This document shows, in pieces, positions 12,739 to 34,708 of a DNA stretch of 64,000 nucleotides. A model generated the notes under the pieces. That model was not told where the DNA came from and did not search any database. It was given only the letters and a program-made list of their open reading frames with translations. A program made the position numbers and the translations under genes. Source of the stretch: Isoetes taiwanensis. Its lineage: Eukaryota > Streptophyta > Lycopodiopsida > Isoetales > Isoetaceae. The first letter of the stretch is position 1; each line of letters opens with the position of its first letter. The stretch is from NCBI GenBank assembly GCA_021234155.1, contig JAJEKV010000014.1:16278872-16342871 (forward strand), written 5' to 3'.

Positions 12739-15641
12739 AATCCAATCAAATTTAGAACCTGGACACCAAGTGTATCTACTATGAAGCCTGATGAAAACAG
12801 GGAACCATGATGTTATTAAAACGCTTCTAATTTCTCTGCAGACTGTAATTATTCCTTCACCAAGTGACTCAGAGCTTCAAAAAGCATGCGGTATCCATGC
12901 TTTGAAAGTTTATCACAAGAAGTAACATGTGCCGAGAGATGGCTGGCAAATTCGCCTTCTCCAGCCAAAAATCTGATAGCAGTACCAGCAATACTGAATC
13001 TTTGAAACTCTCCTAATAACCATGTCAAGCTCGTATGCATTCAAAACACCAGATCAATGGTCCCCTTATAATATGCTAGGTGAGCATCACAGAGAGATGA
13101 AAGTAATGGGAAAAAAACCAGCTTTCTTGAGAAACCCACCGCTATATTGCTGTGGAAAAGGTCCGTTAATATCATGCAAGTCAGTTTGTAAATCTAGAGT
13201 ATATCTAGAGATTTTGACCCTAGTCCCTCAATTTCTTTGCTGTATTTCGGTATTCAACTTAAGATTGCCAAGATGATGGCATACACACCTAAATCAAGAT
13301 GCACTAGATGCCAGACCAATCAATAGGAAGCAATAGATGGAAATGCTCTTCACTGTGCAAAAATGGGTGTACCATAAAACTAAACTCTAAAGTGAAACAC
13401 AACATGAAAGCTATTAAAGAAATTACCTCGTTTACGCACACAAAAAATCCTCATAACTGACACCACCTCAAGAATACAATGCCTCAATTGCTTATTTGTT
13501 TCTCGTGGATTCATCCTCCAACTAGTGGCCTCCAGAATCAATATGATGCTTTGAGTGGGATTTGCCAAAGTTTTCTTTTAGGCCTAACAAATCTTTGATT
13601 TGGAAATACAATTTGGGCACCAGAGGTTTCAAATTTTTTGTCTTTCAAATATTAATTGGTTGGATTCTAAGAACGTTATGAGTTGTATGTCGACGATGAA
13701 ATATTCAATTGGTCGTTTCAAAGAAAAGATTAAATAGGGCAAACATCTTCATACGCTTTGTATATTCTCTGAAATTTATTTTTCTAATGGGGCGTGGGCC
13801 TTAATAGTTTAGGAAATCTATTTTCGTATTCTCTTGAAAATCATACCCCATTATTGGATACTTCATGTTGGAACCTTCGTTGTTTTTTGCTTAGATAGAG
13901 AAATTACTTTGACTTTATCCCGATAACAAACATATACCATGAGCCTTAGTTAATCGATTAGAAAGCAAAAGCGACAAATAGTCCTACTAGATTGATATGC
14001 AAGTTAGATTTAAAAGATATAATTTACCCTGGTAAATATTGTATTAAATATCTCGTTCTGACCTCCCTCCCGAAATTAGGTAAACTTTGGCAAAGTTGCC
14101 ATGGGACATCTGAAAATAACAACCCATGGTCATTATCACCTCTAATATAAAGCGGAAAAAAATTGAAACAAATACCAATTGTGCACAAAAAGAAAAAGAT
14201 ATAGATAATTAAGTAAATGGACCTAATCTATCACAGGAGCATAGGTTAAGAATCTAGTTGAAAAAGACATCTTCATGCCTTGGGACCTAGCACAACAAAA
14301 TGCAATGTTGAGTACAACAAAATGCGATGTTGAGCTGGAGCAAAACCAAAAAGAAATTTATCTCACAAAAACATGGTGAGATCTTTTAGCATCCCGACTT
14401 GCAAAAAACATGCATGTGGTGGTTATACGAAATGCCAAAATGGCTTTGCATCAAAAAAAAAAAAAAAAAAAAAAAAAAAAAAAAAGGCTTTGCATCATAG
14501 AACTCTACAAATACTGACTCTATTTTGACCTTCAAGTCCATGTTATGGAATTTTAAGGCCACCACAAAATAGCATATTTTGACATTTGTGTAGAGCTTTG
14601 GAAGCTCAACTAACATTTTCATATGTGGCAAATATCACCTACCTATTCAAAAGTAGACTTTCGTGAAAAACAATTCAAGCAAAACACATATAACATACCA
14701 TTCTAACCATTTGCAGATGCAAGACATCATAAAATTTGGGTTTTTTTATGTTGTTGGACACTTTTTAGAATCTACGTTTTTAGAAGCAAAGGCATTGCCA
14801 ATGCAAGTCAATTTGCCAAGCTCCAACCATGAACAATGTGCATTGTGGCATGCAGTTGCAGCATGCAACCATCCAGCTGACCTCAATAGTTGTTAGAGAG
14901 TCACGTAAAAGTAACGTGGACACTAAAGAAATTATTAGCATGCAACCATCCAGCTGACCTCAATAGTTGTTAGAGTCTGTAAAAAGTACGTGGACACTAA
15001 AGAAATTATTTCACAATTGTCTGCATAAACTTTTATGGCTTACATTATATATTTTGCACCAATCATAACTTGAATGTGCACATACGCATCACAAAGGACA
15101 ATTGATCAAAAATAGCTACAACCATTTGCTATGAAGTTAATCCTCCAACGTGGGTGGGAGCGGGAGCGGGTGCAAGTCCCAAAGAACCATGCCTTGAGAG
15201 AGAGAGAGAGAGAGAGAGGGAGAGGGAGAGGGAGAGGGAGAGGGAGAGGGAGAGGGAGAGGGAGATGTTAATCCTCCATACAAACATTTGCAAATGAAAA
15301 TATCATGAGACATGCATTGTCAATTCCACGCCTTTGGTTGTGCATACACAGAAGCACATGATAAGTTCAACACCACGTCTATTGGGACAAAAAAAATACG
15401 CCCCATATAGCACCATTGAAACATTGTTAGAAAGTAGCTTGGACCGCTATAATAGTCCTATAAATGACATATACAACTAGGAAGCCTAAATTAAGGATTA
15501 GTAAAAAACGCAGATTCAACATGAACAGGCTATGAGCCTTACGAGTTGCATATTTTGAAAGCTATGAGATGCATACCTTACTTTGTTTAATCGATTAAAT
15601 TGCGGCATTTGGGGAAAGACATGATGTCGCTAGCATTTCAG
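12739..15641 (+). repeat. array unit 1
   Basis: First unit; its left edge joins unrelated sequence at 12738. It lacks 16 bp present in other units (TTGTTCAAACAACT region, near 12862). It alone carries the 33-base poly(A) insertion at 14453-14485. The GA/GGGAGA tract spans about 15195-15266. Confidence 0.9.
14442..14496 (+). repeat. pure poly(A) insertion with 11-bp flanking duplication
   Basis: Thirty-three A residues (14453-14485) stand between two copies of GGCTTTGCATC (14442-14452 and 14486-14496). All other units have a single copy of that 11-mer and no A tract (for example around 17366, 20261 and 26078). Confidence 0.9.
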
Positions 15642-32930: not shown

Positions 32931-34708
32931 AATCCAATCAAATTTAGAACACGGACACCAAGTGTATCTACTATGAAGCCCGATGAAAACAGGGAACCAT
33001 GATGTTATTAAAACGCTTCTAATTTCTCTGCATAGATGTAATTATTCCTTCACCAAGTTGTTCAAACAATCGACTCAGAGCTTCAAAAGCATGCGGTATC
33101 CATGCTTTGAAAGTTTATCACAAGAAGTAACATGTGCTTAGAGATGGTCGGCAAATTAAGCCTTCTCCGACCAAAAATCGATAGCAGTACCAAAGCAATC
33201 TTGAATCTTTCTCCTAATAACCATGTCAAGCTCGTATGCATTCAAAACACCGGATCAATGGTCCCCTTATAATATGCTAGGTGAGCATCACGAGAGAGAT
33301 GAAAGTAATGGGAAAAAACCAAACTTTCTTGAGAAACCCACCGCTATATTCTTTGTGGAAAAGGTCCGTTAATATCATGCAAGTCGGTTTGTAAATCTAG
33401 AGTATATCTAGAGATTTTGACCCTAGTCCCTCAATTTCTTTCTTTGTATTTACGTATTCAACTTAAGATTGCCAAGATGATGGCATACACACCTAAATCA
33501 AGATGCACTAGATGCCGGACCAATCAATAGGAAGCAATAGATGGAAATGCTCTTCTTCATTGCAAAAATGGGTGTACCATAAAACTAAACTCTAAAGTGA
33601 AACACAACATGAAAGCTATTAAAGAAATTACCTCGTTTACGCACACAAAAATCCTCATAAGCGACACCACCTCAAGAATACAATGCCTCAATTGCTTATT
33701 TGTTTCTCGTGGATTCATCCTCCAACTAGTGGCCTCGGAATCAATATGATGCTTTGAGTGGGATTTGCCAAAGTTTTCTTTTTAGGCCTAACAAATCTTT
33801 GATTTGGAAATACAATTTGGGCACGAGAGGGTTTGAATTTTTGTCTTTCAAATATTAATTGGTTGGATTCTAAGAACGTTATGAGTTGTATGTCGGCGAT
33901 GAAATATTCAATTGGTCGTTTCAAAGAAAAGATTAAATAGGGCAAACATCTTCATCGCTTTGTATATTCTCTGAAATTTATTTTTCTAACGGGGCGTGGG
34001 ACCTTAATAGTTTAGGAAATCTATTTTCGTATTCTCTTGAAAATCATACCCCATTATTGGATACTTCATCTTTTGGAACCTTCGTTGTTGCCTGCTTAGA
34101 TAGAGAAATTACTTTGACTTTATCGATAACAAACATATACCATGAGCCTTAGTTAATCGATTAGAAAGCAAACAAATAGTCCTACTAGATTGATATGCAA
34201 GTTAGATTTAAAAGATACGCAATTTACCCTGGTAAATATTGTATTAAATATCTCGTTCTGACCTCCCTCCCGAAATTAGGTAAACTTTGGCAAAGTTGCC
34301 ATGGGACATCTGAAAATAACAACCCATGGTCATTATCACCTCTAATATAAAACGGGAAAAAATTGAAACAAATACCAATTGTGCACAAAAAAGAAAAAGA
34401 TATAGATAATTAAGTAAATGGACCTAATCTATCACAGGAGCATAGGTTAAGAATCTAGTTGAAAAAGACATCTTCATGCCTTGGGACCTAGCACAACAAA
34501 ATGCAATGTTGAGTACAACAAAATGCGATGTTGAGCTGGAGCAAAACCAAAAAGAAATTTATCTCACAAAAACATGGTGAGATCTTTTAGCATCCCGACT
34601 TGCAAAAAACATGCATGTGGTGGTTATACGAAATGCCAAAATGGCTTTGCATCATAGAACTCTACAAATACTGACTCTATTTTGACCTTCAAGTCCATGT
34701 TATGGAAT
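32931..34708 (+). repeat. array unit 8, truncated
   Basis: Partial unit that stops abruptly after TCCATGTTATGGAAT, where every other unit continues TTTAAGGCCACC. The sequence after 34708 belongs to a PIF/Harbinger element. Confidence 0.9.

Follow-up and report, generated by a model that had tools for sequence, protein, structure and literature searches.

Differences among the units of a tandem array in Isoetes taiwanensis as probable base-calling errors at methylated CHG cytosines

The window analysed in the present study, a stretch of 64,000 nucleotides (C952:16278872-16342871) from an assembly of 1.66 Gb in 1110 contigs, carries a tandem array at 12739-34708 whose units differ from one another at recurrent sites. 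The question raised by this locus is whether these differences belong to the plant or to the assembly file. We consider it highly likely that most of them are consensus errors, produced when nanopore-type native reads were called at methylated CHG cytosines and left by the incomplete polishing of repeats. The CHG sites concerned are CAG/CTG and, less clearly, CCG. For most CAG/CTG sites, the variation present in the assembly file is very probably absent from the plant, as judged from sequence comparison.

Array structure and the sites of variation

The array comprises seven full units of 2.84-2.95 kb and one truncated unit, arranged head to tail on the plus strand and starting at 12739 (p1, to 15641), 15642 (p2, to 18534), 18535 (p3, to 21403), 21404 (p4, to 24355), 24356 (p5, to 27201), 27202 (p6, to 30042), 30043 (p7, to 32930) and 32931 (p8, truncated, 1778 bases, to 34708). 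Over its first 1 kb, p1 is among the less altered units; p1 alone holds an (A)33 insert at 14453-14485, with a short duplication of the flank. A GA tract close to the unit end differs greatly in length from one unit to the next, as in the GA-rich runs near 15196, 18079 and 23834. A second array of the same unit lies inverted about 39 kb upstream of the window array (C952:16231688-16252523, L009-L012), and several of its units, in the matches found, lack the sequence that follows the GA microsatellite. Other contigs carry diverged copies covering portions of the unit. Searches of the window with Rfam (gathering threshold) and ARAGORN gave no matches, and one unit open reading frame gave no Pfam match at E 0.01. 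Elsewhere in the window, a leucine-rich-repeat receptor-like kinase gene was observed at 58751-61082 in two open stretches with Pfam LRR and kinase matches.

Fourteen units were aligned, eight from the window and six from the inverted array (p8 and m3-m6 being incomplete); three further fragments of the inverted array did not enter the alignment. The trinucleotide, cluster and allele-direction counts exclude the GA microsatellite, the poly(A) insert and the columns from about 2490 on; the trinucleotide variability count covers about 2340 bases, with sites defined on the majority sequence. Unit m6 was left out of the homologue comparison, the per-unit observed/expected ratios and the flanking-word recount, and L015, a repeat of the window sequence, was unused (16 regions were fetched).

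The alleles quoted in the sequence-only reading were recovered at all 13 of the 13 coordinates quoted. In the alignment, CAG/CTG was variable at every one of 44 sites and CCG/CGG at 7 of 11, while other trinucleotides containing CG were variable at 60-74% and those without CG at 9-44%. When variants inside and outside the CHG/CG context were compared across the aligned units, as had been proposed from the sequence, CHG sites made up 7.0% of the bases and held 43.1% of the variation, a 6.2-fold enrichment that none of 1000 rotations reached; CG was enriched 4.0-fold, in part because CG is often the altered form, and ATG/CAT stood at 0.3-fold. A recount by flanking words, made independently of the multiple alignment on the first 1750 bases of 13 units, gave 33 of 38 for CAG/CTG, 23 of 27 for CCG/CGG, 73-84% for other CG-containing trinucleotides and 12-50% for the rest, headed by AAA/TTT. 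The variation was grouped into 91 clusters, namely 45 with CAG/CTG, 5 with CCG/CGG, 8 with CG only, 13 with A/T-run length differences and 20 others, 13 of which are singletons. The majority allele holds a CHG site in 41 clusters, compared with a mean of 12.1 and a maximum of 23 in 2000 random placements. The claim that variation is concentrated at CTG, CAG and CCG sites is thus borne out by the enrichment, but 33 of the 91 clusters have no link to CHG or CG. Similarly, the claim that the dense run of altered sites at 12931-13003 (plus strand) differs only at CHG-type sites was slightly too strong, since the run also holds a CG/AAG difference. Concentration at a methylation motif, by which modification-mediated nanopore consensus error is recognised, is observed in this array.

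The A/T-run clusters (13 of 91) bear on another explanation, in which the base-caller has a weakness in the CAG/CTG context that is unrelated to methylation and has been left in unpolished repeats. Such differences in run length agree with this explanation, and context and modification are inseparable from sequence alone. However, the repeat pair L031/L032 has G/C-run length differences, yet its CAG/CTG sites are changed at 6 of 68 (0.09), with contexts other than CHG changed at 0.04-0.07. In bacteria, moreover, comparable errors sit at methylation motifs and nearly vanish with motif-trained models (PMC6591954), and they are much reduced by whole-genome amplification (PMC10687267). A context weakness independent of methylation is therefore considered improbable.

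Form, direction and distribution of the changes

In the clusters that include a CAG/CTG-bearing allele, a total of 265 unit-alleles differ from it. Among these alleles, CG was gained in 167 and lost in 4. TTTG/CAAA strings account for 29 of the 265, other complex changes for 26, other single substitutions for 5 and single C>T/G>A transitions for 16, 11 of which occur at one site; in 22, the CAG/CTG count is unchanged. The altered alleles are multi-state with frequent indels, averaging 4.8 alleles per CAG/CTG cluster compared with 2.3 in the 20 other clusters, and at least three alleles were observed in 40 of the 45 CAG/CTG clusters. Between these clusters, long stretches are identical across units. 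By inspection, the forms appear strand-symmetric, with GCTG to CTTTG beside CAGC to CAAAG and CTG to TCG beside CAG to CGA.

Deamination of 5mC predicts transitions and the loss of CG. Ordinary deamination in an old methylated array, producing genuine C-to-T and G-to-A mutations in CHG and CG contexts that were spread by gene conversion, might agree with those clusters that are single transitions and with the depletion of CG and the raised CA/TG in the array and its flanks, which make long-term methylation of the region plausible. Nevertheless, the direction of change in the array is the opposite of that left by deamination: single transitions are few, the gain of CG far exceeds its loss, indels are common, and each CAG/CTG cluster holds several alleles amid identical stretches. 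Deamination is thus given very little weight as the source of the unit differences.

The departure from CAG/CTG differs in degree between units, with an observed/expected ratio that falls from 0.92 (m2) to 0.33 (p8, which is shorter). The CG ratio shows the opposite trend, from 0.43 to 0.69, and is highest in p8 (0.69, over 1778 bases). Four unlinked homologues, including L016, cover part of the unit and bear on the polarity of the changes. L016 has 13 CHG sites in this part. Seven of them, all CAG/CTG, are retained by 5-9 of 13 units and by one to four homologues, L016 counted among these; one CCG is preserved throughout the 13 units; and the remaining five are unpolarisable because no unit has CHG there. 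At the seven polarisable sites, the comparison indicates that CAG/CTG is the shared form and that the other alleles are departures.

This depletion is marked over the arrays, although it is also seen in places outside them. In 1-kb steps over 120.9 kb, the observed/expected ratio of CAG/CTG was 0.64 in 43 array windows compared with 1.12 in 77 outside windows (p about 3e-12, the array windows being non-independent), and that of CG was 0.53 compared with 0.45. The CAG/CTG ratio changes sharply at the left end of the window array, and values remain somewhat low for 1-2 kb beyond the right end of each array (0.68; 0.81 and 0.79). Five of the 77 outside windows fall below 0.6, three of them around a 19-bp minisatellite at 48.8-49.9 kb, where the low CAG/CTG probably reflects the composition of the minisatellite itself. 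This tract, at 48828-49917, has a 19-bp base unit with higher periods of 38 and 57 bp and is low in CAG/CTG. Among the 38 loci scored, which include two overlapping pairs, values under 0.6 were obtained for L018, L029, L038 (which overlaps L029) and L044; L023 (0.82) and L027 (0.88) follow, and the remainder range from 0.96 to 1.46.

Recurrence at unlinked repeats

The same signature was observed at unrelated loci on three other contigs, C1110, C1089 and C742; most other repeat pairs tested lacked it. First, C1110 carries a poly(A)-polymerase-like copy (L029) that contains a psbA insert; its CAG/CTG is changed at 19 of 25 sites, compared with 0, 0, 0, 3 and 5 of 25 in five other such copies, of which three closely resemble one another. 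Relative to the C908 sister (L028), which has Pfam matches to PF20750 and PF00124, the CAG/CTG losses are 32 to 2, and 23 of the 32 gain CG. The altered part of L029 that lies outside the C908 homology has an observed/expected ratio of 0.28 and is also repetitive sequence, having sisters at 94% and 91%. Broken reading frames with CHG-type alterations were also observed in L029. Second, a Copia-type stretch on C1089 (L044) is the sister of the copy at 2262-5150 of the window, which mostly keeps the CAG/CTG form; the losses are 43 to 5, and 29 of the 43 gain CG. Third, the 56-kb contig C742 compared with L016 shows losses of 18 to 0 in one stretch and 28 to 7 in another. All pair loss counts skip events of more than 26 columns. 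When the signature was called among 15 non-array pairs, it was clear in L028/L029 and in one L016/L018 stretch; a short pair inside L020 has CAG/CTG changed at 4 of 4 and, like a few other short pairs, is too small to judge.

In control pairs, the losses run in both directions (9/10 and 12/8 in two Copia pairs, 5/6 in L021/L022 and 2/0 in L031/L032). Some controls are lopsided too, namely L017/L020 (3 to 10, with an indel in 1 of 34 clusters), L039/L042 (5 to 0) and L039/L037 (7 to 1, with 5 of the 7 being single transitions), and one-sidedness alone is therefore no proof. The proof lies instead in the numbers, the indels and the gain of CG at the three affected loci. Among eight older Copia copies, CAG/CTG is changed at 5-30% and the rest at 4-25%, with a modest CAG/CTG excess in some pairs (0.16 compared with 0.07 in L049/L050) and none in others. 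The window Copia copy also differs from L045 and L046 with a CAG/CTG excess (0.50 and 0.48 compared with 0.32 and 0.31), which weighs against the proposal made below.

Plastid inserts were also considered as a test of polarity; the Photo_RC matches gave no usable chloroplast reference, and an intact psbA on C840 (L025, 34.6 kb) matches four nuclear fragments at only 78-88%, which leaves the inserts unpolarisable. This psbA looks unlike that of land plants, and C840 may be an algal contaminant.

The recurrence in separate places also bears on a real mutator directed to CHG sites, such as an error-prone repair of excised 5mC, that rewrites CAG/CTG in repeats. Such a process would account for the choice of sites, for the indels and for the recurrence in repeats. 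However, it must alter a single copy while leaving the sister untouched at all three unlinked loci that show the signature, and it must favour the creation of CG; to our knowledge, no CHG-directed mutator of this kind has been described. That CHG methylation directs the conversion of CAG/CTG into CG-bearing alleles in individual copies, with the sisters unchanged, is thus scarcely credible, and the targeted mutation offered as an option in the sequence-only reading is disfavoured on the same ground.

Probable methylation-related error, the proposed role of polishing and known systems

We propose that the changes arose by base-calling error at methylated CHG sites and that polishing determined where the errors survived. 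The nanopore-type platform, methylation as the cause, a caller trained on CpG and the competition of copies during polishing are inferred. Native DNA with methylated CHG sites would be read by a base-caller without training on them. A caller that knows 5mC mainly as CpG might render CTG as TCG, CCG or CG and CAG as CGA, CGG or CG, and TTTG/CAAA strings would be alternative miscalls of 5mC in CAG/CTG; the gain of CG could reflect a training set where 5mC is nearly always followed by G. Polishing with short reads would then correct unique DNA and the copy or block best matched by the short reads, and errors would remain in the other near-identical copies. In other words, short reads are placed on the best-fitting copy, and thus the errors in its sisters stay. 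The survival of errors in some places and not in others requires polishing as part of the explanation, because the older Copia copies, in which methylation is expected, have no more than a modest CAG/CTG excess.

Several observations agree with this proposal. Clean sisters were found for the altered copies on C1110 and C1089, and in 12 of the 17 array blocks one or more units match the chosen reference allele throughout (three of the 12 hold a single cluster). One clean and one altered sister at unlinked loci, together with the patchwork within the array, are consistent with a role of polishing; the somewhat low kilobases past the right ends of the arrays fit it less well. The alteration of every CAG/CTG site in some unit would be consistent with dense CHG methylation. 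The suggestion that base-calling error in the CHG context underlies the variation is thus strongly supported by the enrichment, the many alleles, the gain of CG, the three unlinked repeats and the precedents discussed below. The further suggestion, in which the variation would serve as a methylation map of the array, is not supported as put, because the contrast between units probably reflects which copy was corrected.

These results suggest that most of the unit differences are not to be read as evolution. In plant assemblies of this type, technical error can account for much of the divergence seen among tandem repeats, young transposons and recent duplicates; such an artefact makes them look older than they are, disrupts reading frames, adds spurious CG sites and resembles hypermutation. 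The combination of CAG/CTG loss and CG gain is visible in the assembly sequence by itself, with no need for an alignment, and can thus flag suspect stretches. If the proposed cause is true, such stretches also testify to dense CHG methylation, though solely in places that escaped correction.

Partial precedents have been reported. In native plant DNA, a lower nanopore accuracy has been described with DNA modification or methylation named as a likely cause (PMC9749173, PMC7501810); unlike the present array, the passages considered from these reports give no CHG error pattern. PMC8514461 likewise yielded nothing on patterns of error, and PMC9716091 proved irrelevant. More generally, no CHG-specific nanopore error pattern in plants is stated in the titles and abstract openings covered, most subscription papers and preprints being outside this coverage. 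For polishing, short reads are reported to prefer the error-free copy of a repeat under single-best placement (PMC8812927), which resembles the persistence of errors in sister copies here; that report concerns bacteria and mainly run-length errors, whereas the present case concerns CHG sites in a plant repeat. In Klebsiella, about 70% of consensus errors made with the then current default ONT models fell at the Dcm motif CCAGG/CCTGG, and these errors nearly vanished with motif-trained models (PMC6591954). The likeness is that 5mC at a CAG/CTG-centred motif unseen in training yields recurrent consensus errors; the Dcm case is bacterial and involves one 5-base motif, whereas any CAG/CTG in a plant repeat is affected here, with errors surviving in some copies only. 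In Listeria, modification-mediated errors at GCTGG/CCAGC and GCAGC/GCTGC were much reduced, and quality much improved, by whole-genome amplification (PMC10687267). Mismatches are described there, whereas many small indels are observed here, with another host, enzyme and copy pattern; the core trinucleotides of the Listeria motifs are nevertheless identical to those of the present array.
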